In this document: one piece after another, positions 8,022 to 44,158 of the stretch | Numbering within the stretch: position 1 is the stretch's first letter | How the letters are laid out: the number at the start of each line of letters is the position of its first letter | From: Taiwanofungus camphoratus | Taxonomy: Eukaryota > Basidiomycota > Agaricomycetes > Polyporales > Taiwanofungaceae | Assembly (NCBI GenBank): GCA_003999685.1 | Contig: CP021230.1 | Span: 1,364,001-1,428,000, forward strand | DNA: 64,000 nucleotides | Reading direction: 5' to 3' | Program-made: the position numbers and the translations under genes | Notes under the pieces: model-generated | What the model was told of the DNA's origin: nothing | Seen by the model: only the letters and a program-made list of their open reading frames with translations | Databases searched by the model: none

Positions 8022-8039
8022 TTTGATAAACAAACGTAG

Positions 8040-9140: not shown

Positions 9141-9457
9141 CACACAATCCAGTAAGAAAACCCTGTTGCAATGGGCCAATAAACACTAAGTTTGGCCAGT
9201 TGTGAACACGCTGCTTGATGTCAGCTGATCATTGAAACAAGCCCCATTGCAACAGGTCAGCCAGGTGTGAATGTATTTCCATTGCAATGGGTTGGCTGGG
9301 CAGGGTACCAGCCTATTGCAATGGGTCAGCTGGGGATGGCACTATCCTGTTGCAACGTGTTGGCCGAAGATGAGACCATCCCATTGCAATGGGTTGGCTG
9401 GTCATAAAACTTACTTGCTGCAATGGGTCAGCTGGTGATAGGTCTGGTGATATGCTT
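9141..9457 (+). repeat. Left terminal inverted repeat, outer part
   Basis: Starts CACACAATCCAGTAA and pairs with the reverse complement of about 41120-41440, sharing landmarks such as a CCAATAAACACT stretch and ATTGAAACAAGCCC. From about 9245 it becomes an array with one TTGCAA palindrome per roughly 34 bp. The X-family remnant at 9458 separates it from its continuation at 12426. Confidence 0.85.
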
Positions 9458-12425
9458 TATAACACTCCAACCCCTACTGGGTACGACCTAGAGACACTGA
9501 AAGGCTATAAAACTTGTTAGTATGCAAGGAGAGTCAGCAGCAAAGAGTTCCTGATCTCAAATTGGTTGAGAGATGTCTTCGAAAGTCTTTGATGACCTAT
9601 GATGTGTGTCGTGACTACTCGATGTAGCTTCAACGCGCTACTGTGTTGTGCTTGTACTAAGAAGAGGCTTAAATGTGAGAACTTAGCTGAATGCAACCCT
9701 TCAATGTGGTTAGACGCAACCCTTCAAGAGACTGTAGAAGGCAGATAGTAAACACAACTCTTTAAACGTAATCGAAGACAGAAGGACACGGTAGAATGCA
9801 ATAGAAGACTGACTTGAAGGTGCTCTTCTTAAGCTCTGCAGGATGGGGGAAAACTTCTCTGTTGGTCCGAGATGTCGTACATCACGTTTATACTACTTTT
9901 ACTATAATGTAAGGCGCATCAGGAGTGGCGTAGCGTGAGTGGCATCCTAACTACTTGCGTACTATGAGCTACAGAGTCACTTCGTAGAGGGAGTGGCTAC
10001 TGTACTGACGTCACTAGGAAGGCTGAGATAAAGGAACGTACATAGACTAAGATGAAACCTGTGGCCGTAGCATTATCGAACGTATTGAGTGGTGTATCGA
10101 AGCTGATCAAGCAATATTGGGGTGGTGTGACTGGTCACATGCGAGGGCCTTTGAGTGGCAACTGCGTGTGGAGTATTGTGTGTAGAGGGAACAGTGCACC
10201 AGAACGTTGGACCGGACCTGACGGAGTGGCTGTGGCATGATTCAAAGCTATCAGAGAGTCTCACAGTGGCTTTTCGGGTTGTATTGGATGTGTCGAGTGG
10301 CGTCGAAGCCATGACTAAGGTCCTAGGGTTGAGTGAGGGTGCTTCACAGGGCCTAGAAGGGCCTGGTGCCTATCATCTCCTTCTTTTTGGAATTTGGACT
10401 GTCCTCAGTCCACACATGACATCTAGAAGCTCAATGGGTGTGACTGGATTGAAGTGCTATGTGGACCTGCATGGTTCTGACCTTCTCATGACTTGTGCCG
10501 ATCATGTGCCGTCGAAGAGGATTTAAGTGGGGGTGACTCAGTCAATTTCTTTTCATGTTCTCGTCTTTACTCAATGCCTCTTCCCTCTTACTGCTTCATT
10601 CCATGGCTTCTCATACTATGACCCCTGCCCTTTCTTCATTGCACACACAACACACTCATGGCCACCTCGTCGCCATGCTTGATACACCCTGTGATGCGGC
10701 TGCCTCTGTCAGAGAGGTGGAGGAGTGGGCTCAGGAGGTTGCAGACCTCCTGATAAGTAACTTAGTCCTTTTTTGTTGTATAATGGCTGACAGATTCTCA
10801 TCATAGAGTACATATTGTAAGGCTCAAGGTGCCGTCAAAGATCCTGAGGTCAAGGGGCATGTCGCTGTGCTCGTTGAAGACCTCACTGAGTGTGCTGTCG
10901 AGTCATGGGTCCACTAGGCCTGCGACAAGTGGCCTGCGCTTGCCGTGGCCATCAATATCACCATTGTGCGTCATGCAGAGGAGGAGCGGCACTTGGAAGA
11001 AGAGGTGCATGCTGCCACTGCTGAAGTTCATCACTTGGAGGAGGAGCGTCGCCAACAGGAGGAGGCCAAGCATTTGGCTAGAGAGGAGGAAGCGGCCATC
11101 CGTCTTGCACAGGAGGCCAAGGAGGCGGTGCACTTGGCCGCTGCTAAAGCTTTGCAGCCAGTCGAGGGTGTTGAGGAGCTCCTTGAAGGAGCCGCCGCTC
11201 CTTCAAAAGGCAAGAAGTGGGCTCAGGAGGATGAGGGGGCCAGTGCGGCTGTAAGTGGCTAGCGCCTTGGTCTTTCTATCTTTCTACTGACTGATTCGTT
11301 ATAAGGTGTCGAAGGGTGATCGTGATGGCTCGGTGGCACTCGAGACTGACTGGGCACAAGTCGCACGTTGGAAGCAGCAGGCAGTGATAGGTGCCAGGCC
11401 CTTCTAGGCTCCATGGAGCGCCCTCACTCAACCCTAGGACCTTAGTCATGACTTTGATGCCACTCGACGCATCCAATACAATCTGAAAAGCCACTGTGGA
11501 ACTCTCCGATAGCTTTGAATCATGCCACAGCCACTCCATCAATTCCGGGCTGATGTTCCAGTGCACCGGTCCCTCTATGCACAATACGCCACATGCAGTT
11601 GCCACTTAAGGTCCTTGCACGAGACCGGTCTTGCCACCCTGATATCACTCAATCTGCTACAACACGCCACTCGATGCACCTGATAACACTATGGCCCCAG
11701 GTTTGGTCTTAGTATATTTCATGTGTGTTCCTTTGTTTCAGCCTTTCTAGTGATGTCAAGTACTGTAGCCACTCCCTCTACAGGCCACTCCGTAGCTCAT
11801 AGTACACAAGTAGTTAGGATGCCTCTTGTACTACACCACTCCTGATGTGCCCTACATTATAGTAAAGTAGTATAAACATGATGTATGATGTCTCGAAACA
11901 ACAGAGAAGTTTTTCCCCATTCTGCAGAGCTCAAGAACAGCACCTTCAATTCAGTCTCCTACTATGTTCTACTGCATCTTTCCGTCTTTGATTACGTTCA
12001 AAGAGTGGCATCTACTATCTGCCTTCTATAATATCTTGAAGGGTTGCATCTCGTCCGTCTTCAAAATCTGTTGAAGGGTTGCATTTAGTCTTATGTCCAC
12101 CTTCGAGTCACATCGAAGGGTTGCGCTAGCATCACATCTCTAACCCTACTCCGCCTTCTACAGTAATTGATGGGCTGCATATCAGCTAAGTCCTCACGTT
12201 TAACCTCCCCTTAGTACGGTACTGTATAGTAGTGCATTGAAGCTATGTTGAGCAGTCGTGACACACATTGTAGGTCATCGAAGACCTTTGTAAACGTCTC
12301 TCAACCCATTTGAGACTGGGAACCCTTTGCTGCTGACTCTCCCCTAGCACACTAACTAAGTACTATAGCCTTCCAGCTTCTCTAAGTCATACCCAGTTGA
12401 GGTTGGAGTGTTATAGTGCATATCA
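9458..12425 (-). mobile_element. Degenerate X-family LTR retroelement remnant
   Basis: An old, CpG-depleted X copy inserted in the left terminal array. One LTR lies at 9458-10375 (starts TGATATGC, ends CCTATCA), followed on the plus strand by the pyrimidine run that is the polypurine tract of a minus-strand element. The internal part 10376-11394 keeps remnants of the antisense coiled-coil ORF seen in the younger X copy. A second X LTR in the opposite orientation occupies 11395-12425. Heavily decayed, with many breaks and no gag or pol left. Clearly older than the copy at 22392-32748. Confidence 0.8.
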
Positions 12426-12790
12426 ATGGGTCAGCCAGGCATAAAACCTACCCATTGCAACAGATCGGCTAGGCATAAAACCTACCTGTTGCAACAGGTC
12501 GGCCAGGCATAATACCTACCTGTTGCAATGGGTTGGCCGGACATGAAATCTACCCATTGCAATGGGTCGGCTGGTGATGGATCCATCTCGTTGCAATGGG
12601 TCGGCTGGCAATGGACCCATCCTGTTGCAATGGGTCGGCCAGGCATGATACCTACTCATTACAACGGGTCGGCTGGGCATGAAACCTACCCGTTGCAATG
12701 GGTTGGCCGGTGATGATACCTATCCGTTGCAACGGGTCAGCTGGTGATGGACCCATCCCATTGCAATGGGTCAGCCAGCCATTCCTCATT
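12426..12790 (+). repeat. Left terminal array, inner part: 34-bp palindromic units
   Basis: About ten tandem units of 34 bp, each with a TTGCAA core inside CCCGTTGCAACGGG or its TG/CA variants, then GTCGGCCGG-like bases and a spacer like CATGAAACCTAC or GATGGACCCAT. The right-hand clusters hold the same unit in the opposite orientation. Confidence 0.9.
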
Positions 12791-12851
12791 TCCAGGAATG
12801 CCCCCTGACCCTTGCAGCAGCCAGGTCAAGTCTGATGCCTAAATGAAGGCC

Positions 12852-14807
12852 TCACTGTTGGGTAAAGCTTTGATAAATTACAGCCATGTTCAGATATACA
12901 TGAAGTCCCAAGAACAGGAATGTAGATATGGTTACATTTTGTACCTTTCTAGTACATGTGCTACAGAATCCACCCAAGGCATTGAAGTCCCTCATGTCAG
13001 TCAGCCTTTGCAAAGAATCAGCAGATTTGACCTGCTCCACCCTGAGATGCTGATAAGCATATACCAATTGAGCAGCAGCTTGGGTCTCAGTGTGCTCATC
13101 AGCCCATCTCAGCAAGTCTGCAGAAAAGACAGATTCTACATAAACAATGAGTGAACACAAAGGCAGGAGTTGGACGAGAGAACCATGATTGAGAACTCAC
13201 CATCATCACTGGGGTCTGGCCCTTGAGCTTGTCCCCCTGCTGAAAATTGTGCCTGTGCATGCCCATGTACTATTAGAACCATGGAAAAGGGGAAAAAGAA
13301 CTTACCTATCTGAGCCTGGCCCTCATCCACCTCCATCTGATCTGCATGCTGCCCAGCATCAGAACTGAGCTTTATGACATCCCCCTGCCCCTGCCCCTCC
13401 TCATCTTCCTCCTCCTCCTCCTCATCATCATCATTATTATCCTCATCACTATCTGTCTCATACTGCAACCCCCCTCCAGAGCTCTGTCCCTCACTGCCAG
13501 ATCCATCTCCAAAAGAGCCACTACCAGAAGAGGAGGATGAAGAAGGAGGGAGAGGAAATCTCCTCTGGCTGGGACTCAATCCCACTTCCACAAACTCCTC
13601 ATTGGCAAAGAACTCCTGACACCTGATGGCCATCATCTCCCTGTAGCCTGTGGAGGTCATGGTGGGACGTCTGGGGCTGAAGAGGTCATGCCTCCTCTTC
13701 TCAAAGAGGGTGAGGTCAGGGTGGGGCTTGGTGGGCCTTTTGATGTCAATGATGGTGCCATAGATGGTGGACACCAAGCACCCAGAAAGAATGGGGCGGG
13801 ACTCACGATACTTCTTCACATTTTCTGTGAGAGGGACAACCTCCACGTCATCATCATACATGAAGGGGGGGAGGGGGACAGTGGACAGAAGGTGGGTTTT
13901 CTTGCCCTTCTTCTTCAGCACTGGGGTTGTCCCACTCCCTGCTATGTGCTTGTGGCTGTGGGTGCTGCACCTGCCACCAACGGCACCACTGGACAACCCA
14001 ATGGTGCTGAACCACGACCCGACGGCACTGTGCTAAGACCCGATGGTGCCATGCTAGGACCTGATGGCACCATGCTAGGACCCATTGGCACTGAACCACA
14101 ACCTGACGGCACCATGCTTGAGCCTGGCAGTGCCATTGCATGCCCTGATGCCAGTCCACCTGCTCCTGACAGCCCCGCTACACCGACGAATGGTGCTGCT
14201 CCTCCTTTGCTTCCTGATGGCGCCAGTGCACAACCCACCAGCGCCGCACCCAGTGGTGGTCTGGCCGATGCTGGAGGGGGGGGAGGCAGCTGGGTCCACT
14301 CCGGCACTTGTGATGCAGCCTGGGCCAATGGGCCTGACTGGGATGGGGTGACAGTGGTAGAGTTGTCCACCCTGGCTGTTCAAATGGAGGAGGACAGGAT
14401 CTACCTGCAGAGGATGCTGGTGGTGGTGGCAGCATTGTCCAGTCGGGTGGTTGAGATAGCAGCTGGGCTGACCGGCCAGCTGATGTTGAGGGTGAGAGCC
14501 CTTCCCGCACCATCGATGAGTGGCCTGCTGATGGGAGAGGTGGGGGAGGAAGCTGCCTCCAGTCTGGCGGTCCAGATGTGTCCCAGAATGGATGCTGGGT
14601 GACTGGTGATGGGGGGGGAGGGGGAAGCACAGTCCACTCTGGAGGTTGGGATGAGGTCCCAGGGGACTGTCTGGAGGAAACAGAACTGAGATTGACTGAC
14701 TGTGAGGGGCCCCTCCTACTCCCTTTCCTTCCTCCCTGGCCTCTCCCTCCTTCTGTCCCTTCTCTGGCCATCTCTAGGGCCACCCTTCTAGGGGGTAGTG
14801 GAGGCAA
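12852..14807 (-). pseudogene. Uncharacterised cargo gene, proline-rich (probably broken)
   Basis: Minus-strand gene of the composite transposon; function not recognised. The first long open part (14807 downward) encodes imperfect repeats of the form PPxW-x-x-LPPPPP-S (four or five copies), then a segment made by a 21-bp minisatellite (about 14240-13975). A conserved-looking part follows (about 13960-13560) with YDDDVEVVPLTENVKKYRES, GTIIDIKRPTKPHPDLTLF and GYREMMAIRCQEFFANEEF. A long Asp/Glu/Ser tract (13480-13360) comes next, and a helical segment continues to about 12980 (SADLLRWADEHTETQAAAQL). Pieces lie in different frames with plausible introns near 13290 and 13190, so some changes of frame are splicing. 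The upstream start is unclear and may lie near 14990. It could be a DNA-binding or scaffold protein of the transposon, but nothing seen proves that. Confidence 0.45.
13975..14240. repeat. 21-bp minisatellite array M1
   Basis: Tandem units of about 21 bp such as GGCACCATGCTAGGACCTGAT, inside the cargo gene on the opposite strand. They translate there as repeated GPSMVPSG-type peptides. Confidence 0.75.
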
Positions 14808-15245
14808 ATTCCATATAGAGGGATCCTGCCCTGTCCTCTAATGCTCACTAGGCTAATCAGATGAGAGAGAGATGGTGGGTGCCTGCAGAGGCTGAGAAGG
14901 CCTGGTGGTGCCCTTTCCCGTGGATTGAGTGTCTGTAACAGGGCCATTGGTATCACAAATAGAGGAATATTGAAAGCACTCACTCTTGAATGTGCTGGAC
15001 AATGGGTCACAGAAATGATGAATTTGAAGCTCAAGATCAGCGTGAAACAGAGCTGGGATTGAATATGAGGAATCAGGCAGGCATCAGTAAGTTTTGGTCA
15101 CGTGATGTGTCTGAACACACCGATCACGTGATCATTTCACAATCTTTTTTGCCATTGTTCGTCCATTGGTCATTGACACCGCCATTGTGACACTCCCCTT
15201 CTATGCATTTCTAGTTGCTTTTCATTATCAAAACCTGCTTTAAAT

Positions 15246-17639
15246 ATGTCCTCTACTCTGTCTGTGCAAAAGAGCCTCTATCTGATGGCAAACCGGGTGC
15301 ATCTGGCCCTCTCTGACTTGCCTGGCCCCAACCATTCATGCCGGACCTGGTTTGAGGAGAGGTTGGAGCAGGAGCTGGTAAGTTTTCCACTATCTCATTA
15401 CATGCTAACTATATACACATTCATTTCAGCATCCCCTCCAGAACCTTCTCATCATGGCCTCCACTGCTAGTGAGTGGCCATATGTGCCCGCCATCATCCT
15501 AAGCAGCACAGGTGAGTTTGTGCATGCCGCTCAGCACAGCATGCCAGCATGATTGGAGGTCATGTCAGCTGAGGATCCAGAAGTCAAGGCCAACCCCTGG
15601 TACTTGGAGCCACCAGAGGGTGCTGTGTCAGAGGTGAGGGAGGAGAGTATGGAGGACACTTGGTGGCAGGCAGATGGTGAGTAGCTGCATGATGATTACA
15701 TGACTTACACTGACTTCTTTTTATTCCCCAGCTGTTGCAGGTGCCAAGAGGACCCGGGAGACATCAGTGGAGGTTGAGGTGGAGGAGGAGACCCAGAGAA
15801 GGAAGAAGGTGAGGATGGGACCGGAGGTTGTGGCACTGCACAAGTCTGGCAGAACTGTGGAGGTGCTGTAGAGGGTGGAGGTGGATGGTGTGAGCTGGGA
15901 GGAGGGGATGGTTGAGGAAGACATCGAGATGGAGGGGATGAGCCCAGTTGAGAGAGGGCAGCGCCATGAGGAGAAGAAACTGGCCCAGCAACCAGCAACT
16001 GCCTCCCCACTGCCATGCCTATTGCCCAGGACACCCTGCAAGCTGAAGGGGATCCTGAAGCCGACAACACCGGTTCCATCAGAGGATGAGTGGGGGCAGC
16101 TGCTGAGGAGGAGCAGCCAGGCACAATCACGGTCACGGTCAGTGTCTGCAGTGCTGAGCAAGCAGGGGAGGCCGTCCCGAAGGCTTGGAGCCATGTGCTC
16201 TGATGAATGGGCATGGCCGATGGTGCATGACTGCTCCATGTTTCTCTCACTTTCAGCTGACATTGGCATAGGACCCACCATGCACCTGGTGTGAGCCAGG
16301 GGAATGTATCATCTCCACCCACCTCAACCAGCCACCCACAGACAAAGTGACAGCCTGTGACAGGTGTCACTTTGCCAAGGCTAAATGTATGCAGTCACCT
16401 CCCACCACACACCACCACCAAGCCACTGCAAAAGTGGCCGATGCCACTGTCTCCTTCAGCTGGCCCTCAACAGGCAAGAAGACTGGGAGGGCACAGGCCA
16501 TGGAGCCGGTGGGGCAGCGCACTCCAGCACCGAAGACGGGGAAGATGGCGGTCTCAAGGAGGAGATCACCTTCTCCTGTTGATGAGCCATCTGAGTCGGG
16601 TGGAGAGGGGACAGTGGCATCTATGCCACCAAAGCGGCGTAGTAAGTTTTTTGTTTCTTGCTTTAGATCCTTCCTCATTGATGGCCAGATATGGCATACA
16701 TAGACATTGTGGTCCCGCCGGCATGGAGGCTTCATGTGCCACGGCTCAGCGACACACTTGTGCAACCGTGGGATGTGCCTGCAGAGGATCTGGGAGGGCA
16801 GGTGGAGCTGCTTGAGTACGAGAACCTGGCCCTGCACCGCCAACTGGCCGCAATGGAGCTCATGGTAGAGACTTTGAGGGCAGCAGTGGAGGGCTTGGTG
16901 GGACCAGGTGTCTTGAACCTGCCAGGTAGGTCCCTGTTCCTTTATTCACACCCTGGCTGACCTTGATCTCCATTTACTCATAGGGCCATCTACTGGGCCT
17001 CAGGAAGAGGTTCCAATGGACCACAATTCTGGTCTCATGGACTGGGAGATCAGCAGAGGTGACCTGGCACCTTCACAGGACGACCTGGCTCCACTCAAGG
17101 ACGACCTGGCTTTGCCTCAGAATGACCCAGCTCTGCCTCAGGAGAACCCAGCTCTAGCTCTGTATATCACAGCGCCAGATGCAAGTGATCCAGCAATGGT
17201 TCACCTGAATACCGGTCTGCATGACCAGGAACAGGAGCCAGTGGTCTGGTTCTCCCTGCCAGACATGGAGAGAAGGGTAAGCAGGGTTTACTCACCTCCT
17301 GTCATCAATCTAGCACCCTCTGTGTTGCCCACACCATCCCCTGCCTCACCGGTCCCCCTTCCTGATGCCCTGGCGCTGCTGTTGCAGGATCTGGCACTGG
17401 TCCATCCACTTGCGGTGCTGATCATCTACTATCCAGCACTGGTCAGCGGTGATAGGGTGCCAGTGATATATCCTGAGGTACAAGGACCCGGTGAAACTCC
17501 TGCTGCCACCTCTGCTTGTGCCCAGCCTCAGTCACAGGTGATGGAGGTGTCCACTGGGAAGGGAGGGGATGGTGTCAGTGCAATGTTGAGTGGATATGGA
17601 GATGAGGAGGATGAAGATGATGTCATGGACATTGAATAG
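15246..17639 (+). pseudogene. Zinc-cluster plus coiled-coil cargo protein (broken copy)
   Basis: Plus-strand cargo gene. The start ATG at 15246 opens MSSTLSVQKSLYLMANRV, followed after a short intron by further open segments. An acidic/basic middle (EVEVEEETQRRKKVRMGPE) leads to a six-cysteine cluster at about 16275-16390: C-x2-C-x4-C, 17 residues, then C-x2-C-x6-C (ACDRCHFAKAKC), reminiscent of fungal Zn2Cys6 DNA-binding clusters. A coiled coil follows (ELLEYENLALHRQLAAMELM, about 16800-16880), then Asp/Pro/Leu repeats (DDLAPLKDDLALPQNDPALP). The gene ends EDEDDVMDIE plus stop at 17639. Introns look to lie near 15377-15430, 16642-16690 and 16926-16983. Two internal stops (TGA near 15550, TAG near 15869) interrupt the frame; TGA would arise from CGA by CpG decay. 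The layout resembles the antisense gene of element X. A transcription-factor-like role is inference. Confidence 0.6.
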
Positions 17640-17754
17640 TAGTGTATCATTGGATGTACAAGCAATTTATATAGTAGTTTTCAAGTAATTTCATTTGCAT
17701 ATACTTCCATTTAGGCTATTTCAGGGTGAACATAAAACAGAAAATAATAAGGCA

Positions 17755-17960
17755 GAAACACCACTGGTGCCACAACACTCAGGTTCAGCACTGCACCCAT
17801 TGCTGCTGGTGCCGCACTCAACACTGCCAGTGCCATAGTCATTGCCACCAGTGCTGTAGTCATCGCTGCCAGTGCCACACTCATCGCCGCCAGCACCGCA
17901 CTCATCACTGCTGGCACCGTAATCATTGTGGCTGGCACCGTGGTCATTGCTGTCAGCGCC
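17755..17960. repeat. 21-bp minisatellite array M2
   Basis: About eight to nine units like CATCGCTGCCAGTGCCACACT between two convergent cargo genes. The consensus CATYGCYRCCRGYGCCRCACT is shared with M3 and, on the opposite strand, M4. Confidence 0.85.
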
Positions 17961-17991
17961 GCACCCCTCAACTTCCTCCTCTCAATGCAAC

Positions 17992-20697
17992 CTAAGTCAC
18001 AGTCCTCCTCCTACCCCTGTTGGCCAGCCTAGGTTTAGATCGTCCAGGCACCCCCTTGCCCTTCTTCCTAGATGATGATTTCACCTCATCCTTCTCCTCC
18101 ACAGGCCCCAACTCATTCTTTTTCCTCTTCCAGCTCACCTCCTTTGGACCGACACCATTCTTCTTTGGCACAGGTAGCACATCAGGTCCACCAGACTTAC
18201 CAGGCTGTGCCTGGGGATGTCTTGAAGCCAATCTGGTCAGTCTGGAGCTGTCCCCCATCACCTCAGTGTCTGCTGATACCACCTCTATGCCTACCCTCAT
18301 CTCATCACATGCAGGCAGCAGGACATTCTCCACCATGTCCTCACTGAGCACTGAGTTGAGAACATAGTCAGGCAAGTCGGTGGGCTCACCCTCCACTTCA
18401 TTGGCCACCTGGGCCTCCTCCAAGTCCCTGAGCATCAGCCCAATCACCAGTGCCATGTTCTGGGTCTTCATCATGTCCAGCTTAAAGTTGTCCCCCCTGC
18501 TGGTGTAATAGGGCCTCGAGGACAGCCACTGGGTGAACTTGGAGCCTGTGGCCATATTGCTGTGGACGGCTCTAGTACAGTGGGGGGAGGTGTACTTCCA
18601 TTCTCCCCAGGCCCATTGATGAGACCGATTGCCAGAAACAATAATGTGAGCCTGGGCAAGGGATGTTAAGGCTGCCATGATGAATATGAAAAGCACAACC
18701 ACACACCAGTTTGGGGATGGCCTTGATGAAGTTGCGATACGGCATCTGTTGGAACAGACTAAGCAGATAGGTCTGTCTTGCCTCTCAGGACTGTCTTGGA
18801 TCATTGCCGGTGACTTGAACTTGGTCCTGGGTATGGCCAGCACAAGAGTCCTTGACGCACTTCCTTCATCCTCCACATGACCGGCCACTGGCTGTCCTCC
18901 AGCATGTGCCAGTGATGGAGATTTGGTATGTTGAGATAAAGGGTTACCAGTGGGCCAACCTCTGCCTGCCAGCACTGAACTTGCACCTGCCGGCGCCACA
19001 CCTGTCACCACCGGCGCTGCACTCATCGCCACCGGTGCCGCACTTGCACCTGCTGGCACCATGCATACACTCGTTGGCCCTGCCACTGCCGCATCTCCTG
19101 TGAGTGGTGCTCTACCTCTGACCGCCACTCTGGGTCTTTGTGTGTGACCTGACCAATGTGGTTCACTAGGCCCCGGCTCATTCCCATTCTCTATGTCACT
19201 TGACTCATTGTGACGGCTACTGTCTTTGTCCAATTCAGTGGTGTTTTTCTCATCTTCAGGGTGAGGTGGCATCACCGCCTTTTCCTTGCCCTTGTTCTTG
19301 CGGCCTGCCTGCTTGGGATGATTAGGCCGAGATGGGACCCTCTTCACCAGCTGCTGAGGTTCCTTGTCCCTGCCCTTCCATGCCTTGAATTTGAAGGTGT
19401 AGTCCACCTCCGGGTCATCCTGCCGGTCAGATCAGAAGTTCAGAAGCCGGTCCACATCTGCCTGGATCATCTTGGTGCAGTCCTTCAAAGTGATGTCCTC
19501 TGGCATATACACAGCTGAGATGTATTTGTCCTGCTCAGACTGCAACACCCCCCAAGGCACCTTCGCCTCTGGCATCCCACAGCACTTGACTATGGGACAT
19601 CCCAGACAATCTGCCAGTCAGCCCAGCAGCTCGGCCACAGGGATGGGGGACATACCATAATGCATGCACACAAACTGTGCTATCAACTGCTTCTTTTGAT
19701 TCAGGCTCACTGCCAAGATGACCTCCTGAGATGGAAGAAGGGGCTCCCCATCCTCTGTGGTGTCCAGCTCCAGTGCCAGCTTGGTATTTCTCTTCCTCTT
19801 CTTTGGCTCCTCCTCCCCATCAACCTCCTGCTCCTGTGCTGTCCCAGTGTCAATGGCTACCAGGATGGTGGACAATATGGGCTCTGACACTCACTGAACT
19901 GGGTGTTTGCATATCTCTTGAACAACCTCAGATACTCCTCTGAGTTCCAGTCCACCACCTTGTCCTCCACCTTGTCCCCACCGCCCAACTAGTCATTGAA
20001 ATCAAAACTGGGGCTTGGAGGTGAGAGAGGAGAGGACAATTGAGGACTGCACACTCACTCTGTGGTGTAGATCTTGGCATTCTTTCCCCTGTACGTGCCC
20101 AGCACATACACCCTCATGCCCATCATCCTGAAGACGTACTGGGCAAACTCCTTGACTGCCTTTTCCCCATGCTTCTCCACCCTGGCCATCTGGACATCTG
20201 CAGGAGCTCCCTCTGTGTTCCATATCTCAGCTTCCCTCACATAGGCAGCCTTCTGCTCTTCTGACACAGCAGCGCACAACTGTGCTTTCATGGTCTGGTA
20301 ATGGGTGATCCACTGAGGGCTGCCTGGTTTGGCACCCCCAGTCAGAATGGCCATCCTGTGCATCAGTTCCTCCTTGCCATGGGTCACCACCACACTCCTC
20401 CAGGTGTATGATGATTTCGAATCAAACTCTTTCCTCTCTGCCTTTTTCTCCTGCTTGTTCCTGGTGTACTTCTTCAATGCCTGCATGGAGATGATCATGA
20501 GCACGTCCTCTGTCATGTAGAGCAACACCTCTCACCTCTTTCTCCTCATCTGTGAGCTTTCTGTTCTCCAATTCCTCCAGATCCTCGTACACATCCTGCA
20601 GGAACTGCGCTCAGGCTGCTCTGTCTGCCTGGTTCCACTCAGGGAACAAAGCATCAATGGCATCCTTGTAAGTCTGAGGGATGGAGTTCCTAGGCAT
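17992..20697 (-). pseudogene. Conserved transposon-associated accessory protein (broken copy)
   Basis: Begins at ATG 20697 (MPRNSIPQTYKDAIDALFPE) and runs to about 17992. After a GT-AG intron at about 20536-20482 comes a block (ALKKYTRNKQEKKAERKEFD, PGSPQWITHYQTMKAQLCAA, REAEIWNTEGAP, AVKEFAQYVFRMMGMRVYVL). I recognise this type from predicted basidiomycete proteins next to transposons: helical, with a W-N-x-x-G/P-P motif and no assigned function. Further segments cover 20020-19400 (SQEVILAVSLNQKKQLIAQF) and a 471-codon frame 19407-17992 (Lys/Arg-rich, with an internal hydrophobic stretch near 18700). At least three in-frame stops outside introns (TGA near 20612, 19618 and 19430) show it is no longer intact. 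M3 lies in its coding sequence. It is divergent from the transposase gene with 218 bp between the two ATGs. Confidence 0.6.
18950..19110. repeat. 21-bp minisatellite array M3
   Basis: Units like CATCGCCACCGGTGCCGCACT, in frame within the minus-strand accessory gene, where they read as Ala/Pro/Val/Ser-rich repeats. Confidence 0.8.
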
Positions 20698-20915
20698 GGC
20701 TTAAGTGAGTGAGCAGCAGAGCAGTGAGGCAAGGCAGATCCCTAGTTTGATGCACTTCAGCTGTTGCGCACTTTTGCTAAAGTTGCTCCAACCCAATGGG
20801 TCACACCTGTTGTCACACAAATGTGCACTCACACGCATCTGCACTCAAGCTTCAATACACATATTTGAGTGCATTCCCTGTGTTTTCGCTCTTCACCACA
20901 AAACAGGTGAACCTG
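20698..20915. promoter_or_regulatory. Shared divergent promoter of accessory gene and KDZ transposase
   Basis: 218 bp between the ATG of the minus-strand accessory gene (20697) and the first plausible ATG of the KDZ transposase (20916). Head-to-head placement makes one bidirectional promoter likely. No TATA box is obvious; several CACACA/TGTG-type repeats are present. Confidence 0.55.
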
Positions 20916-23371: not shown

Positions 23372-23386
23372 TCTCCTCCTCTTTGG
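23372..23386 (-). other. Polypurine tract of element X
   Basis: Read on the minus strand, a run of A and G (AAAGAGGAGGAGA) directly abuts the start of the 3' LTR. This is the site where plus-strand DNA synthesis is primed in LTR elements. Confidence 0.8.
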
Positions 23387-31714: not shown

Positions 31715-31740
31715 ATCTGAAAGCGGCGAATTCCTTGCCT

Positions 31741-31764
31741 GAAATCCCCTCGCGGTGGGCTCCA
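31741..31764 (-). other. tRNA-type primer-binding site of element X
   Basis: On the plus strand, a 24-nt stretch ending CGCGGTGGGCTCCA reads like the T-arm/acceptor 3' end of a tRNA including CCA, four bases from the LTR edge. A related sequence (GGTGGGCTCCA) sits next to another X LTR at 60417-60430. Confidence 0.7.
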
Positions 31765-31768
31765 GAAA

Positions 31769-32748
31769 TGATGCGCACTATAACACTCCAACCCCAACTG
31801 GGTACGACCTAGAGAAGCTGGAAAGCTATAGGACTAGTCAGTGTGGAGGGGAGAGTCAGCAGCAAAGGGTTCCCGATCTCAAATGGGTCGAGAGATGTCT
31901 ACGAAGGTCTTCGACGACCCTCTACGTGTGTCGCGACTGCTCGACGTAGCTTCAATGCGCTACTATGCTGTACTATACTAGGGAGAGGCTTAAACGTGAG
32001 AACTTAGCTGATATACAGCCCTTCGAATTTCTGTAGAAGGTGGACTTGGGTTAGAGAGAGATGCTAGCGCAGTCCTTCGATGTGGCTCGAAGGTGGACGT
32101 AAGACTGAACGCAACTTCTTCGACTGATGTCGAAGACAGACGAGACGCAAGCCTTCAAGATACTGTAGAAGGCAGATAGTAGACGCAACTCTTCGAACGT
32201 AATCGAAGACGGAAGGACACAGTAGAATGCAGTAGGTGACTAAATCGAAGGTGCTCTTCTTGAGCTCTGCAGGATAGGGGAAAACTTCTCTGTTGTTCCG
32301 AGACACCATACATCGCATTTATACTACTGTACTATAATGTAAGGCGCATCGGGAGTGGCATAGTACGAGTGGCATCCTAACTACTTGCGTACTATGAATT
32401 ATGGAGTGGCATGAAATATACTAAGACAAGACCTGGGGCCGTAGTGTTATCGAGTACATCGAGTGGCGCATCGTAGCAAATCGAGCGATATCGGAGTGGC
32501 GAGACCGGTCATGTGCAAGGACATTGAGTGGCAACTGCGTGTGGTGTATTGTGCGTAGAGGGACCGGTACACTGGAACATCGGACTGGAACTGGCGGAGT
32601 GGCAGTGGCGTGATTCGAGGCTATCAGAGAGTCCCGCGATGGCTTTTTGGGCTGTATCGGACATGTCGAGTGGCGCCGAAGTCATGACTAAGGTCCTAGG
32701 GTCGAGTGAGGGCGCTCCGCGGGGTCTAGAAGGGCCTGGCACCTATCA
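31769..32748 (-). repeat. 5' LTR of element X
   Basis: 980 bp, about 98% identical by eye to 22392-23371 and next to the primer-binding site. It is followed by CCGT, matching the CCGT before 22392. Confidence 0.93.
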
Positions 32749-35344
32749 CCGTGTCGGTGAGTGCTTTCACCACCACCCACCAGAAGGTTGCCAATGCTCA
32801 TGGGGTACCCCACCATCAAGGACCGGTATCAGCAATTCCTCAGGGTCATCAGACAGTGGTCTCATCTCAAGGACCTCATGCGACATGGGTTTGGATACCC
32901 ATCCAGACAGCAGCCTGGAGAAGGTGACCTTGCCTTTTTCTGCGCTGTCTGCCCACAACCTGGAGTCAATCTGAACCCAGATTGGAAGGAACATTCTGAC
33001 CAGTAAGCGATCTGACCCCGGTCTGGCTGTGCCCGGTCTGACCATGTCCAGATTGGTGTACACCTGAGGGTTCATGATGGATGGCAACTTCTCTGCAGAG
33101 CATCTCAAGATGAGGAGGCCCAGGAATGATGTGGAGATCACTGACGGCACCGGCTTCTTTGTGGCCAATGGCAGGTACAAGGCCCATCTCCAGGTGGCCA
33201 AGGAGCTCAAGGAGGTAGGTTCCCATCCCACTGGTCCCCATGCCCATGATCCCATGTGTCTTTCTTCCCATTCCACAGCCGGGCACCTGTCACAACCACA
33301 AGGCCGTCAACCTGGCCAATGCTGACTGGCACAAGCTGGAGTCCACCAGGATCGAAGCCACTGCCTGTCCTTGGCATGGCTGCTTTGTCCCACACTCCGT
33401 TGTGGACTTTCAAAAGGGGGAGAGACAGATGAACATGAACTACTCCCTGTCCAATGCCATTGGGTACAACACAAAGGACATTGGCAGGATGCTCCTGCTT
33501 TATGACATCAACTGTCAGTATGGTCAGTATCTGCTGAAGTGGTTCCAGCAAAATCCCTATCTTCAGATGCCCGAAGGTCTCAAAATTGTCAAGGGCATCG
33601 GCTTGTTCCATGTGCATGGGCAACAGGATGCCTGCTTCATTCGATACTCACCCAGCTTCATCCCCGGCGCCGTCCTGGTGGATGGGGAGATCCTTGAGAC
33701 TCTTTGGTCTTCTCTGAACAAGGTGTCTGGCAGCACCAGAGGCATGGCCACCTCTCACCGGAAGGAGGTTCTCAACCGGCACATGAATGACTCCAACTGG
33801 AAGAAGATCATCAACACCGGTATGATGGTCTCATCCTGGCGATGAGTGGATTCGGCTGACCCAGTGTCTTCCTTGCAGAGGAAGTACAAGAACATCAAGC
33901 CCATACTGACAGACACCAAAAGGTCATATCATGAAGGCCAGCATTGATCCCACTTTGCTGGTTCAGTGGAAACAGCAGATGGGAAAGGCTCAACGACACA
34001 GGCTAAAGGATGAAAAAGACATGGATGTCTTTGACATGGAGCTCAGAAAAGGTAAGTGCATCGGCATGCAGCCGAAACCATCCCTTTTCAACATCGGCCT
34101 TTATTCTTCAGCACTGAGCCAGGCCGACATCCAACTGAGGCTGGCTGAGAAGGAGCCCCACCTGGGTTTGTCCCGAGGGGCTGTTGGATGGTTGACTCAG
34201 GGCCTGAAGGTGCAGGAGACACAGTGAGTGGCACCATGTATCATGACATCTTTATCCTCTCATGATGGGTGCAGAATCTCCTTGGCTGCTGAGGTCAGAT
34301 CCATGGGCTGGAATTTGACCACCCAGCAGAAGATCCAGTTGGTGGAAAAAAAGAGGAAGCTGCAAATGAGGATTGACAGCTTTGAGTCCCAAAGATCAAG
34401 GTACATGGCCGGCCTGATGGATGACAATGGGGAGAAGTGGGAAGATGAGGTTTTACCACCAGACAAGGATCTGGGTGAGGAGTGGGATGTCACTGAGATG
34501 GACAATCCCTTTGAGGTGCCCAGTTTGCAAGGGGTCAACCCTGAGGTGGAGGCCAAATACTCATCCCTCTCCCTTTCATCCACCACCGGAGTGGACAGGT
34601 GCCGCCGGGCAGGCCTTCAAGTGCTTCTGCAGCAGGAGATGGATCTCAGGGAAGGTCAGGCCAATGATGCCCTTCATCAGATCCGGATTGCCATCGGGCA
34701 AAAGTCATTCTTGTTCCGCACCAAAGTGCACCATGCCAAGTCCCAGCAGAGGAAGACCAGGGCATGGCAGGATGTCAACACCATAGACAAAACCCTGCAG
34801 CATCATGCCAGGGTGTACAGCAAGGCCAGGAAGGCCCTAGTGCTTCTTGAGGCCCCAGCTGGCCTTTTGGCCAAGTATCAGGTTCTGCACAGAGAGCACC
34901 TGAAGGTGAGCACCGCAGTGGTGGATCCCAATAAAAGAGGAGAGAGGGGGACATCCCTTCCATGGTTCTGGACCATGGATATTCAAGGGGAAAGCGACAC
35001 GGACTCATACATGCAGGAATGTGAGTGCCATCACCCCTTGGGCTGTGTCTCATAAATGGCTGACGTCGGGGGTGACAGTTCATAGGGTGAATTGGTTTAG
35101 GGCAAAGTCCAGGTATGACAGGGTGGTGGAAGAAGAGAAGCAGCTGAGGTATGAGATGAGGTTTGCTGCCAACTACTTTGCCCATCAGAGCGAGATGTGG
35201 GTGAGGCTCATGCAGGAATCCACAGACAGGGACCAGATAGGTCATAGGGCATATGGTGCTCAACAGGCATTCTTGTACTTGGCATTGGCAAGAGATGCAG
35301 AGAGGATATGTCAATGGGTGGAGCAAGTAGCCCATGTACTGTAG
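32749..35344 (+). pseudogene. KDZ transposase, catalytic and C-terminal part
   Basis: Continues the gene split at 22391. Conserved segments in order: DRYQQFLRVIRQWSHLKDL, CAVCPQPGVNLNPDW, MMDGNFSAEHLKMRRP (first catalytic Asp, about 33080), C-x-NH at about 33286, ACPWHGCFVPHSVVDFQKGE, LLYDINCQYG (second Asp, about 33504), GIGLFHVHGQQDACFIRYSP and VDGEILETLWSSLNKVSGST (catalytic Glu, about 33687-33698), then RGMATSHRKEVL and the long helical tail ending FLYLALARDAERICQWVEQV. Introns at about 33214-33278, 34052-34119, 34227-34273 and 35022-35079 have GT-AG ends. The DDE-type residues are all present. Faults are an in-frame TGA at 33065 just before the first catalytic block (CGA would restore Arg) and a change of frame near 33930. 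With the retroelement insertion, the gene cannot make a whole protein. Confidence 0.88.
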
Positions 35345-35409
35345 GATGTTTGTATTCATGCATGCCCACAGCCTATGTCAACATCACATAAATACCATGG
35401 GGTGACTCT

Positions 35410-35570
35410 TGGGCTGTTGACACCACAACTTTGCCCACCAGCACTGCAACTTTGCCCACTGGCACTGCAACTTTGCCCACTGGCGCTGCAACTTTGCCCA
35501 CTGGTGCCACAACTTTGCCCACTGGCACCGCAACTTCGCCCTCCAGTGCCGCAACTTTACCTGCTGGCCT
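35410..35570. repeat. 21-bp minisatellite array M5
   Basis: About seven near-perfect units like CTTTGCCCACTGGCACTGCAA just downstream of the transposase stop codon, related to the M2/M3 consensus. It fills most of the gap between the transposase gene and the convergent gene that ends at 35771. Confidence 0.85.
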
Positions 35571-35770
35571 GGTCACCTTATGCACCTTTCACTGTCAACA
35601 TCATTACTTCGATGGCTGGAACTGAACCTGGGACTGCTGGCACTGCTACTTTGACTGCACTGCAACTTTATGCTAGGACTGTTACTGTGACATCCGCACA
35701 TCAGTTCAAGCCTTCAGGAAAGAAATTGATATCATTGTGTGGACAAGCTACAGATAAGTTCACATGACAA

Positions 35771-36829
35771 CTACAGAAGTACAGGCTCCTTCTCCAGGTC
35801 CCATATCCTAGCAATGATGTCAATCCCTCTTAGCATGTTGACCCTCACCTGCATCTCATATGCCAGCTGTTTATCCACATGAAGCATGTGAGCTTGCACT
35901 CCCTTCAAGTACTCCAAGATAGACTTGTCCCTCTGAGCAGGCAGCTTCTTGGCCAACTCATCCAGACTGGGCCCCTCATATGCTGGAACAGCCAAGACAG
36001 CAGGATGTTGCTGCTCCTCCACATGGGCTCTCCATTCATTGATCTGTGTGGTCTGGTTCAAGAGGGAAGGGAACAAGAGGGGCTTAGAGAGCCCTCACCT
36101 TTCTCTTTATGCCTCTCACATTAGCATCAGCCTCCATCTTGTGCTTGACAGCAAGCACCATTTCTTGTCTCAGATACCTGTCATTCTCTTGAAAGATCTG
36201 CTGGACAAACTGCAAGAGATCAAGGATCTCTGGAGGACAGGGAGGAGTGGCATCACCCATCTGGGCCTTCCACCAGTTGCCCATCCTGATGGCATGATCT
36301 TGGGAGATGCTGGGACCTGGGGCACTGCACAGCTTGAGGTTGGGGTGTGACCTGGATTTCTCAACAGCAGGGTGCTGGACATCCCCTGATGGGGTCTGGA
36401 GCTCAGTGGGCCCTGTGTCCATCACACTCTCAGACTCCCTGGGCAGTGCTGGAGCCAGCTGGGTCTATGGAGGACCATGAACTTCAGGCAATGGAAGAGT
36501 TCAGGATGACACTCACCTGATGGAGAAGCCCCTGCATATCACTCTTCACCAAGTCCTCAAGGCTGGGAGGGATGTGAAGATCCAAGCCTGCAATGGCCCT
36601 CAGGCTGATGGTCATGGCAGCCTGGAGCTGCAACAGGGGATGTGAATGTGTCAGTCTTTCAGACAATGGCACCAAGGGTCCATCATGTACTCACCACTCC
36701 CTTGGCCATGACCATCTGCACCTCTGCATCCTCAGGAAAGGTGTTGGCCCTCATGATCTCCAGATGGACAGGGAGGACCAGATGTGCCTCCATAGAGTCA
36801 AGCAGGGAAATGGTAGCAGCAGAGGCCAT
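35771..36829 (-). CDS. Intact cargo gene of unknown function, 294 aa
   Basis: Exons on the minus strand: 36829-36695, 36627-36517, 36464-36099 and 36043-35771, all in phase 0 with short GT-AG introns, giving 294 aa with no break. The sequence starts MASAATISLLDSMEAHLVLP and contains LRAIAGLDLHIPPSLEDLVK, a Pro/Ser-rich linker, MGNWWKAQMGDATPPCPPEI, ILDLLQFVQQIFQENDRYLR, and a C-terminal helical region (INEWRAHVEEQQHPAVLAVP, LAYEMQVRVNMLRGIDIIAR). I recognise no domain; it is mostly helical and could form coiled-coil contacts. It lies downstream of and on the same strand as the TET/JBP-like gene, separated by minisatellite M6, and converges with the transposase gene. Its intact frame stands out because most neighbouring cargo genes are damaged. 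It is probably a partner in the transposon's own biology, but that is inference. Confidence 0.7.
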
Positions 36830-37029
36830 TGAGGTCACAGAGGTCTTATGGACAGGGAGGTGAATGAGATGGAGATGGGGAGGTTGATATCAGATGCATC
36901 ATTTCAACCTTAAAGGTCACATGACATGCCACTGATGGACTCAAGATCAGCACCTCTGCCCATGGGCATGGCAATCACAGATGCCAAACAAGTCACAGAA
37001 TTTCACATCCATGACGTCTATCAAACTCA

Positions 37030-37490
37030 TTAATGGATTGCAGCACTGGCAGCAAGAGGTGCACCAGTGGAGACAGGTGCAGTGCTGGTGGGCGGAGGTC
37101 CAGCACTGGACCGAGGAGGTGTGGCACCATCGGGTCAGGTCCGGCACCAGTTGGCAAAGGAACAGTGCCATCAGGCAGATGTCCGGCACTGTCAGGGTTG
37201 GTGCAGTGCCAGTGGGAAAAGATACAGCGCTGTCAGGTCAGGTCCAGCACTGGTTGGCAGAGGAGCGGCACTGTCGGGCAGATGTCCGGTGCCGTCAGGG
37301 TTGGTGCGGTGCCAGTGGAAAGAGGTATGGCGCCATCAGGTCAGGTCCAGCACCGTCAGGCAGAGCCATGGCGTCACATGGCACCGGAAATAGGAGGTCC
37401 GGTGCTGGTGGAAAGATGTACAGCACTGTCGGGTCAGGACTGGCACCATTGGATAAGGTCCAGTGCCTGTGGGCAGAGGGGTGGTGGATG
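37030..37490. repeat. Minisatellite array M6 (20-21 bp units)
   Basis: The longest array, with units such as GGCACTGTCGGGCAGATGTCC and AGTGCCAGTGGGAAAAGATAC. It sits between the TET/JBP-like gene and the intact 294-aa gene and is more diverged than M2-M5. Confidence 0.75.
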
Positions 37491-37555
37491 CAGTCCTTTG
37501 ATGTCTCAAAGCTTGGTCATTGGATGAATGTCTGAGAGTGTGTGCAAGTTGCATA

Positions 37556-38849
37556 TTACACTCCATCATATGTATCTACACTCATCCAACCAGCCAATGA
37601 CACCTCTGCTCTCTTATGTATCTTGGTCCTCATATAGTAGGCTAGACATATCCTCTCCTCCTCCTTCCCCACCACCCTGTGCAAAATGGTCCTCCCAGAC
37701 AGGGCTGTGATGGTCCCACTAGGATAGGCCAGTCTCACCCCCACCCCCTCCAGATCCAAGGTCAAATCTTGAGAGTTCCCAATGGTCACCAAGATGTCAT
37801 ACCAGCATGCCATGGCCTTCCAGTCCCTGTGACTGGGACTTTCCCTGTTGGCAATGAAGCTCATCGCATTGAAGGGCGAATGCCATTCCTTCAGCACCTC
37901 ATCCACCCCTGGAAGCCATTGCATCCCTCTCAATGAGGCCATGCCAGACCTGTAAAGCTCAGGGTGAATGATGCTCATTATTCCCCCTATCAATGCAGAG
38001 GTCTCTCTCATCCTCTGCAGCCATACCCTGCTCACAGAGTCTGGCTTCTTCAGCACACTGCAAACCTCTGGATTGAAACTCATGCTCTGGGTGTTGGCCT
38101 TATCTCAGAACTGGTGTGAGCATGAAATCCCTTGTCACTCACCTCATGTCCTTGTTGAAACCATGCTGGGGACAGGTTGATGCATCTAGGGAGGAACTGC
38201 TCACACTGGTCTTCATTCATGTAATACTCAGACTTCATCCTCCAGTTGCCCTCTGACTGGGGATGATGGGATTTCAACTCCTGGTTCAGCATCACTGAAT
38301 CATCCCATATCTGGTGCTGACCATCTCAAATGTCATGCTCATCATCACAAGCAAAAATCAGGTCAAACTCACCTGATGCTCTGGGCTCAGCACATCAGGT
38401 AGATGCCATACCAGAATCTTCCCATGCTGATCCACCACAGTCACTGGGGTTTTGATGACTGGCATGGGATCATCAAACAATGGAGGGAACTGTTCAGAGA
38501 TCCTGGCCTCCTGAGCCTTGTTGAACTCAGAGATTTGAGGGGTCAGCTGTTCAGCATAGGCTCTGATGTCCCAGGGCACTGTCACTGCTCAATCATACAA
38601 CATCAGCAATGGAGACATCAGAACAACTGTCTCTGGCTCACAGCGGGTCATATAGGCTTCTGCCAACTTGGCAGATATCTGATAGGCATTCTGAACAAAT
38701 CTCAATGAGAAGCTCAAGCTGGGGTATATAGAAAAAGGAGGTGGAGGGGGATCAAGGGACATGTGAGACAGGTGATGCAAGAAAAGTTGATGAAGGTAAG
38801 ATGCCACATTCTCAGTATATTCAAAGTGATTGGCCATAGGTGTGCTCAT
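37556..38849 (-). pseudogene. TET/JBP-like 2-oxoglutarate/Fe(II) dioxygenase (one internal stop)
   Basis: Member of the fungal TET/JBP-type oxygenases, which oxidise 5-methylpyrimidines in DNA. Clear exons are 38086-37556 and 38316-38143, plus one ending at 38373, in frame with 56-nt GT-AG introns. Motifs: VVDQHGKILVWHLPDVL, FLPRCINLSPAWFQQGHE, IHPELYRSGMASLRGM, WHSPFNAMSFIANRESPSHR followed by D (H-x-D iron-binding pair), WYDILVTIGN, LEGVGVRLAYPSGTITALSG, ILH (second iron His) and ERICLAYYMR (Arg for 2-oxoglutarate), ending AGWMSVDTYDGV. All expected metal and cofactor residues are present. One TGA lies at about 38589-38591, upstream of the catalytic domain, where CGA (Arg) would fit. The first exon and start codon are uncertain. 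KDZ transposase genes beside TET/JBP genes are a known mushroom arrangement. An active host gene captured here is less likely but possible. Confidence 0.8.
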
Positions 38850-39059
38850 GACAGTTTCATTCAAAACCAAAGGTGATGATTCTGAGATACAGTTGAAATT
38901 GACAAGTGGAAAAAAAATGATTGACATGGACCAAATGCATGTATACGATGACAAACAACATGACAATGACTGTGAATGAAAGCCAATAAAAAATATATGT
39001 ATGTAATAGACAAAATCAGCAAAACATGGGCAGACACAGGTTGAACCCAGTTCAGTTGA

Positions 39060-39313
39060 CCCACCCTTGCCTCACCCATTGCACCAGGTTGGGTTCATTG
39101 CCCACTGACCTATTGCAGCTGGCTGGTTTCATTGTCGGCCAACCCATTACTGCAGGCTGAGATGGTTTCATGACTGGCTGACTCATTGCAACAGGATAGT
39201 GCTATTGCCAGCCAACCTGTTGCAATGGGTAGGTTTCATGCCCGGCCGACCTGTTGCAACAGGATGGTCCCATCGCTGGCCGACCCATTGCAACAGAATG
39301 GTTCCACCACCAG
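39060..39313 (-). repeat. Right terminal array, inner part
   Basis: Units of the same 34-bp palindromic repeat as at 12426-12790 but in the opposite orientation. The innermost units are degenerate. Interrupted at 39314 by a Y solo LTR and resumes at 41078. Confidence 0.85.
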
Positions 39314-41077
39314 TGATGAGTCCCGTAGCCTCCTGGGCCCTGAATCACGATTTTAGAAGCTTTCTAATCCCCCAACCGACCATTCTAAGACTCTTCTACA
39401 GCCTACGACAGGTGGGATAGGTTTCTATAATATTCCTAACGCCTCCTTTCCTTCCTAAACCCTTCTAACACCCTACAAAGTCTTGCAAAGTCACACGAGG
39501 TGCTACGAGGTTTCAAATGCTAGCCACGAAGTCCCTAACTCCTGCTAAGTCCACTATCGGACACTGCTGGCCCTCCCATACTGTTCTATTGGATCTAGGT
39601 CCTACCTACTACGTCACTCATCCCGGGCTTAGCTAAGAAGTCTTAGCTAAGTCTCTCCTAGCTCTTGTGATTGCAGCTATCTCCGATAGGCTCTGAAATG
39701 GTCCGAAGTTCCAGAGGCTGGACTTAGGAAGCCTTGCACACCCCATGGGTCTCGATCCTATGCCATAAGGTCCTCCTATTGTGCATCCATATGATCCTCC
39801 ACCCAGTTAGGACACCTCCTATCCCGATTAGGCCAAGTCCCACTGCTAAGAACTTTGTACGCTCTTAGCCCACTAAGATAGTTGATCACAGCGCATGGCT
39901 GCTCTCGGATAGTCATCCCGCCCTCGTGAATGAACTTGGTCACCTTTCTACCATATGTAGTTACCCTGTTTCAGTTCCTATTTAGTTCCTATCCTTCTTG
40001 TGTTCACTTTGGTGCCCATGCGCTGTAGTACACATTTCGGAAGTGCAAGGATCACTTCACGCAAGAATAGTTCACCTCACACTCTCCTATTTAGTCAGAG
40101 GTAGTTTACTATGTACAACAGAGACCCCTCAGTGCACGCTTCTCTCTTTGGAATACAAGTTCCCCTGTAGCTCCAATCTCAGGAAAGTGCCGCGAGTACA
40201 ACCTTAGGAATGGTCCTAAGGCCCCTAAGTCTCCACCCCAGCTCCATTTCAGTACCTTTGAACTACGTCTACGCTCACAATATATCTACGAACCACGTCT
40301 ACACTTCCCGAACTACGCACTACGATCCACGAAGTCGCTGTGACTTTGCACCCTTCAGCACCTCATATAGTACCTATCCGGTGGGCCTCCGCCTTAGTTA
40401 TACCCTTAGGCTCACGTTGCATCATCCCTACGTCCTACAAATAGCCCTACGACTCTCCCATAGCCTTCATTTCAGGCTATAGTACATCTCCCTATGCCCT
40501 TGAATTCTCCAACCTACGCCTTGAAGTCATCAGACACTTTGAAGCTTTCAGCAACCTCGTTCTCCCATTCTTATTCCAAGTATTAGCTCTCTGAACCATC
40601 TGACCACTCCTACAGGGCTCCTACGCTAGCCAAACCTCGCCCACCTCGTTCTAACAAACCTCTAAGCCTTACGCCCTTTAGCTAACTCTAGCTAAAAGAC
40701 TTTGCAGCAGTCTCGTACCCTCTGCCGCTTAGTTGAAACTATAGTCTATTGGCTTATTGCTCCCTAACTCCATACAGCCTACGAAGTCAGCTTGTGTGAT
40801 TTAGCTAAAACTTCGAAGGACTTCGCAGAACCTCGAAGGACTTTGCGCACTTCGGAGGGCCTCGTAAGGCCTTAGGGATCATATAGCACTTAGGAACAAG
40901 ATCCTGTTGTGCAGAACCCTTGACCCCTTACTCCCCCACTTACAAAAGCAAGACATACAGATTTCCCGGTATCATACAGGTTGTAGCTCCTACCCTCACA
41001 TCCCCACAGTTCACACACTACCTCACAGCCACGTTGCGGAGCACTCCCTAGGTGCCAGGGTCCCCTAGGTCGTATCA
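39314..41077. mobile_element. Y-family solo LTR, copy 1
   Basis: 1764 bp, begins TGATGAGTCCCG and ends GGTCGTATCA. The second copy at 61710-63473 has exactly the same length. Flanks are CCAG (left) and CCGG (right), a 4-bp target duplication with one CpG transition. It splits the right terminal array of the composite transposon. Short open frames inside are not genes. No internal region, so it is probably a recombination product. Confidence 0.88.
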
Positions 41078-41440
41078 CCGGCCGACCTGTTGCAACAGGA
41101 TGGTCCCATCACCGGCCAACCCATTGCAATGGGATGGTTTCACTGCCGGCTGACCTGTTGCAATGGGATGGTCCCATCACCAGCCGACCTGTTGCAACAG
41201 GATGGTTCCATCACCAGCTGACCTGTTGCAACGGGATGAGTCTATTGCTGGCCGACCCGTTGCAATGAGATGGTTCCATCGCTGGCTGACCCATTGCAAT
41301 GGGAATACATTCATGCCCAGCCGACCTGTTGCAACAGGGCTTGTTTCAATGGTCAGCCGACATTGGATGGCCTGTTCACAATGGGCCAAACTCAGTGTTT
41401 ATTGGTCCATTGCAATGGGGTTTTTTTACTGGATTGTGTG
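41078..41440 (-). repeat. Right terminal inverted repeat, outer part
   Basis: Ends GGATTGTGTG at 41440. The reverse complement matches 9141-9457 at about 85%, including the leader before the array. About eight 34-bp units. Confidence 0.88.
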
Positions 41441-44140: not shown

Positions 44141-44158
44141 CTACGTTTGTTTATCAAA

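Follow-up and report, generated by a model that had tools for sequence, protein, structure and literature searches.

A window of 64,000 nt from contig CP021230.1 of Taiwanofungus camphoratus (assembly GCA_003999685.1, positions 1,364,001 to 1,428,000) contains a defunct and rearranged copy of a DNA transposon of Taiwanofungus, roughly 17 kb long, which carries a TET/JBP dioxygenase gene next to a KDZ transposase gene and resembles Kyakuja. All positions refer to this window unless a contig is given, and the genome scanned for further copies comprised 33.19 Mb in 15 contigs. A preliminary description of the sequence had spotted the element correctly but bounded it wrongly, taking positions 9141 and 41440 as the two ends of one unit; the copy is not intact. 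Its observation as a whole is partly confirmed, and its interpretation, that six or so genes travel together and that the oxygenase acts on the CpGs of the element itself, is partly supported. TET-bearing KDZ transposons of basidiomycetes, together with a proposed escape from methylation, were already published in 2025 (PMC12730594), so the kind of element and the central idea are known. Possibly new are the 34-bp, four-CpG end arrays that decay by CpG transitions and a TET gene that is the most CpG-poor of those tested. What merits further study is the pairing of a near-CpG-free TET gene with CpG-rich end arrays.

Both genes of the preliminary description are confirmed. The transposase gene lies on the plus strand in two parts, a 5' part (21180-22391) with a CxC2 cluster at 22123-22371 (E-value 4.5e-24) and a 3' part (32751-35764) with the KDZ domain at 33282-33797 (E-value 3.1e-36). 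It is split just past the CxC2 region by a retrotransposon on the minus strand (22392-32748) with a gag-type protease, whose long terminal repeats (LTRs; 22392-23371 and 31769-32748) are 98% identical and which, by reading, is flanked by the 4-bp duplication CCGT. The TET gene (37556-38588, minus strand) has its domain exon at 37556-38104, within which the Pfam match to Tet_JBP spans 37628-38020 (E-value 6.3e-18). Two upstream exons follow a hand-drawn splice model, on which the exons from 38588 down are open and the first exon is provisional. Aligned with CcTET of Coprinopsis cinerea (PDB 8jkk, 7vpn), the HxD motif, the later His and the Arg are in register and the equivalent of Asp337 is retained, whereas the equivalent of Gly331 is Ala in this copy, which lies in a broken element; residue numbers and roles, apart from that of the Arg, follow PMC12730594. 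Once three inserts (360, 6563 and 9966 bp) are excluded, about 16.9 kb of element is left, in agreement with the size of about 17 kb first estimated.

A pattern search of the genome returned two types of tip in this family, type A with 33 matches and type B with 19, and none for the reversed patterns. Type A ends begin with CACACA, and type B ends begin with G/A-AGCCC on their own strand, so that the far end of an element reads ...GGGCT(C/T). From about the seventh base onward the two are alike, and 34-bp arrays are common to both. The flanking 7-mers of 32 of the 33 A ends and of all 19 B ends were compared, giving 608 A-B pairs. Exact 7-bp duplications were found in seven of these, against about 0.04 expected, and were confined to A-B pairs: six join neighbours in the correct orientation, and the seventh, a split pair, links two ends on C5 with 200 kb between them. 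When the 32 A ends were paired with one another, no A-A pair matched exactly, and one, with its ends on C3 and C5, matched with a single mismatch. A-A pairs as a second mobile form were rejected. The pair C5:1508051/1521344 has mirror-image flanks; this region (C5:1508051-1521344) is an apparent palindrome of about 13 kb, with one such A end on each arm. Four further neighbouring A-B pairs (C5:1600264, C5:1731368, C9:1158884 and C5:1777029) have no matching flanks. The eighth flanking base agrees in only two of the six neighbouring exact pairs, and as 16 of the 19 B ends have G at the tip and the other 3 have A, that base appears to belong to the element. Target duplications of 8 bp, a trait of Zisupton and Dileera, were considered and given up for a duplication of 7 bp and, at the B tip, one base that belongs to the element. 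The two tip types and the 7-bp rule help to recognise true copies. In the split pair, the B end at C5:1600264 and the A end at C5:1800230 share the same exact target 7-mer, which suggests that a large rearrangement broke one insertion and that true mates can be separated in this way. Four A-B pairs whose duplications are exact measure 4.0-5.7 kb and look non-autonomous, matching the window element, at a threshold of at least 150 nt, only in the end arrays.

Seven other loci, aligned to the reversed window element, contain one body broken by differing inserts, which corresponds to window positions 12426-22391, 32751-39313 and, for the A end, 41081-41440. In this body, TET and KDZ genes are convergent, and gene 2 (18043-20697, minus strand) is divergent from KDZ. 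At 9 of the 11 TET loci of the genome, an A end lies upstream of TET in the same orientation, 1.2-3.6 kb away, and at 8 of the 11 a KDZ match lies 4-14 kb off in the convergent layout. Of the remaining two TET loci, one (C5:1679579) is next to KDZ and the other (C5:1787246) sits between unmatched B and A ends, so that all 11 were found together with parts of the element. On C9, two pairs of loci have identical A flanks and therefore resemble segmental duplicates, which brings the A-end count to 7 of 9 by independent locus; the apparent duplication (C9:1158884-1207675 and 1234253-1290657) is roughly 50 kb long and includes two TET loci in each part. TET, KDZ transposase and gene 2 are enclosed by A and B ends at C12:1033415-1062932 and C13:229429-255313, where the 7-bp duplications are exact, and at C11:843727-870657, where the duplication agrees in 5 of 7 bases. 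These three genes are therefore supported as one repeated unit, and complete relatives have one A end, one B end, 7-bp target duplications and this gene set, with a probable gene 3 in most aligned copies. The ends searched for genome-wide thus recur both around the gene set and without it. Gene 2 occurs in about 16 places of the genome (86 exon matches, grouped by eye), and the gene 3 stretch (15872-17636, plus strand) was aligned in copies C11, C12a, C12b, C5a and C9, and not in C13 or C5b. Within the otherwise collinear C13 copy, a 1.2-kb segment corresponding to 35755-36950 is inverted.

Of the six or so genes said to travel together, the evidence supports TET, KDZ and gene 2, gene 3 is a probable gene, and the open reading frames (ORFs) at 36087-36464 and 13139-14032 (both minus strand) are candidates, the first without an assigned function and the second weakly supported; six is possible, not shown. 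The ratio of nonsynonymous to synonymous changes (pN/pS), pooled over the copies and computed for 30 frames (18043-18950 and 22081-22391, with 60 and 52 stops, were excluded as misregistered), was 0.39 and 0.45 for the KDZ exons, 0.52 for the CxC2 ORF, 0.18 and 0.31 for the N-terminal exons of gene 2, consistent with purifying selection, and 0.45 and 0.49 for the gene 3 frames, with many other frames at 0.69-1.40. Since the plus-strand frame 15872-16291 has a value of 0.49 despite 10 stops in other copies, pN/pS is only a rough guide. When CpG transitions were removed, a codon-phase test listed 20 windows below 0.05, the strongest at 16233-16532 (p 1.8e-7). Gene 3 is fast evolving and includes a possible Zn2-Cys6-like cluster (16272-16700), below the Pfam cut-off. 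Gene 2 encodes a homologue of a 789-aa hypothetical protein of Taiwanofungus and has no Pfam match; all three hits for its longest ORF are from Taiwanofungus camphoratus (Polyporales), at 77-83% identity. Searches for its relatives returned Taiwanofungus proteins only, among length-limited candidates, two of the searches scoring just the 8000 candidates that had most words in common with the query. A structure predicted for it from a three-sequence alignment had a mean predicted local distance difference test score of 31.7 and was not used.

CpG content varies along the element. Each end consists of tandem copies of a 34-bp unit in which the palindrome CCCGTTGCAACGGG and four CpGs occur. Scored against our consensus, 279 units (3 of 282 were left out for poor match, and the six central bases, which had defined the search, were unscored) were off consensus in 734 of 2232 cells of the CpG columns, 726 of them by transitions, compared to 104 of 2232 cells in the other scored columns. 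The observed/expected (O/E) CpG ratio is 0.22 and 0.17 in two element segments, with TpG+CpA at 1.55-1.60, compared to 0.92-1.04 in the four 2-kb bins of positions 1-8000 and 1.12 in the inserted retrotransposon, which would thus be young or unmethylated. CpG-type transitions account for 3143 of the 7654 substitutions between the window and the other copies. This decay of CpG to TpG/CpA suggests that the element DNA has long been CpG-methylated, and the genome has five DNA-methylase matches (PF00145) above cut-off. Across 37559-39071, which includes TET, CpG O/E is 0.00-0.07 in the six covering sequences and below that of KDZ in each of them; such values were read in window coordinates, so that a small indel in another copy may create or mask a CpG. 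The TET domain exon alone has 0.00-0.15 in seven sequences and KDZ 0.03-0.23 in eight. The stretch 35951-36751, which includes the candidate ORF at 36087-36464, has no CpG in any of seven aligned sequences. None of the 13 Arg codons of the TET exon is CGN, and it has 2 CpGs where random synonymous codons would give 31 on average; no other of the larger exons tested has so strong a deficit (38374-38587, in the wrong frame with 6 stops, was excluded). The other element exons are also under the synonymous expectation, less so than TET among the larger ones. That low TET CpG is common to the copies suggests that it predates their spread.

The account that we favour, and judge fairly probable, is that of a TET-carrying KDZ element, broken here, whose TET enzyme acts on the CpG-dense end arrays against host methylation. 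The enzyme would most likely oxidise 5-methylcytosine (5mC) in the 34-bp arrays at both ends, which could let the transposase and the element promoters work under host methylation. With almost no CpG, the TET gene could be transcribed, and stay intact, while the rest of the element is methylated. The combination of a CpG-poor TET gene with CpG-rich arrays suggests, without proving, a demethylase gene that is hard to silence by CpG methylation and acts on arrays that can be methylated; action of the oxygenase on the element's own CpGs is unproven. Transposons with a TET gene have been proposed to counter host methylation, and the Taiwanofungus family offers a concrete candidate target in these arrays, while its nearly CpG-free demethylase gene bears on how such a gene itself escapes silencing.

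Several observations weigh against this account. Depletion is not special to TET, as the gene 2 exon at 20058-20483 has 4 CpGs against 25.6 expected and no CGN among 9 Arg, and in the C5a copy, which has a truncated TET gene, TET exon and KDZ both stand at a CpG O/E of 0.03. Nor is it specific to the element: the stretches 42000-43700 and 47000-48500 have CpG O/E of 0.08 and 0.20, and 52000-58500 has 0.94 but is itself a retroelement. The TET record fits selection against methylation and long exposure to methylation alike, and the loss may reflect age alone. Coding signal is uneven, with pN/pS of 0.62 in the middle of gene 2 and 1.06, no sign of coding, in the ORF 38592-39071 upstream of TET; with CpG transitions still included, the plain codon-phase test had hardly any signal, with one window below 1e-3. 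The TET genes of L. bicolor and C. cinerea are themselves reported to carry 5-hydroxymethylcytosine (5hmC) and 5-formylcytosine (5fC; PMC8889193), so that a CpG-free TET gene is not general.

The maps of oxidised 5mC cited in PMC12730594 include retrotransposons as well as the surroundings of Kyakuja, and its author favours non-targeted action in mushrooms. It is accordingly possible, although we think it rather unlikely, that TET is a genuine part of the transposon that works genome-wide, oxidising 5mC in all repeats with no preference for its own ends, 5hmC and 5fC possibly being the functional mark themselves. The CpG depletion of other repeats in the window agrees with such an effect; the concentration of CpGs in the end arrays, four per 34-bp unit, makes these natural targets, yet is still compatible with a general effect. 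A more elaborate form of array-directed action can be offered only tentatively, as its probability seems low: a self-licensing switch, in which methylation of the CCCGTTGCAACGGG arrays would gate transposase binding and the product of the near-CpG-free TET gene would clear them, perhaps guided by the zinc-cluster-like or the gene 2 protein. If true, it would be a fungal, enzyme-based counterpart of plant VANC anti-silencing.

We regard it as improbable that TET is passive cargo, carried along by copying alone and of no use to the element. In favour of this, the TET domain exon has a pN/pS of just 0.51, drawn from a small number of changes (41 nonsynonymous and 23 synonymous), and 3 of the 11 TET loci have stops within the match. 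On the other hand, the protein encoded by the domain exon is 94-98% identical among copies, the exon is open in six of seven sequences including the window (C12a was aligned only over residues 53-182), and the HxD, His, Arg and Asp337-equivalent residues are all retained.

The boundaries of the window copy do not support one unit from 9141 to 41440. Matching inverted ends had been described, and an inverted repeat of 268 nt with 76% identity (9138-9405 and 41176-41443) indeed encloses the gene set. The terminus on the TET side (41074-41440, minus strand) has the type A tip CACACAATCCAGTAA and about 7.7 tandem 34-bp units; the inner portion of its array (39074-39313, minus strand) is separated from it by a 1767-bp repeat (39314-41080, no strand assigned) that looks like a solo LTR and has a 93% identical copy at 61710-63476. 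The end at 9141-9447 (plus strand) is also type A and not the mate of 41440. No B tip was found in the window with up to three mismatches allowed. The 7-bp flanks, GGAAAAT on the 9141 side and ATGTAAG on the 41440 side, are unlike, and neither is within one mismatch of those of any of the 19 B ends. A rearranged, LTR-derived insert (9448-12425, no strand assigned), which contains inverted pieces of LTR and whose flanks differ (TCTGG and ATGGG), parts the 9141 end from the remainder, which starts with the 34-bp array of the far (B) side (12426-12782, plus strand), itself without the B tip. Tip type, flanking 7-mers and insert junction thus rule out a single intact element, and a complete one broken only by later insertions is very improbable, given also that no A-A pair has an exact duplication. 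Our conclusion is that a rearrangement removed the genuine B end of the 41440 element and that 9141-9447 derives from a different copy. Where end arrays recombine, then, matching inverted ends are not enough to delimit an element. A chance position of a host TET gene next to the remains of a transposon, for which the window offers nothing but adjacency, is hardly credible with the same layout of A ends and KDZ at 9 and 8 of the 11 TET loci.

Compared to the TET+ Kyakuja transposons of Agaricomycetes, Polyporales included, as PMC12730594 describes them, the Taiwanofungus element likewise combines a KDZ transposase (PF18758, PF18803) with an AG-type TET in a Polyporales host. The 7-bp target duplications of the Laccaria families recur in copies of the Taiwanofungus family, while the window copy shows none, and an anti-silencing role, by escape from methylation silencing, was proposed for Kyakuja. 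In contrast, Kyakuja termini are 5'-CA..TG-3', while those of the present element are CACACA...GGGCT(C/T); two Laccaria families lack terminal inverted repeats, while the Taiwanofungus ends match each other and bear the CpG arrays; and gene 2 has hits only in Taiwanofungus. The likeness is one of gene content and target duplications. The main text of PMC12730594 does not name Antrodia or Taiwanofungus, and the text as consulted does not mention subterminal or tandem repeats or CpG. The 8-bp target duplications of Zisupton and Dileera were not seen in this family. Cryptococcus KDZ1-KDZ3, as presented in PMC12810828, share a KDZ transposase and long terminal repeats with it, but are about 9-11 kb long, have CxC1 and duplications of 8 bp (KDZ1) or 4-8 bp (KDZ2, KDZ3), and come with no TET in that description. 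Arabidopsis VANDAL/VANC (PMC10398659) may work in a like manner, in that the element itself encodes the anti-silencing factor and the noncoding regions targeted contain tandem repeats; VANC, however, is a sequence-specific anti-silencing protein, the source as consulted mentions no TET oxygenase, and homology is not claimed.

Two neighbouring features lie outside the element. A 3.0-kb inverted duplication of 96% identity (5384-8385 and 43795-46787) stands on both sides of the locus and includes an ORF for a fungal-type protein kinase (PF17667, tested in the right copy). Another LTR-type retroelement, with near-normal CpG, occupies 51779-57987 on the minus strand and has reverse transcriptase and protease domains in 55211-57058.

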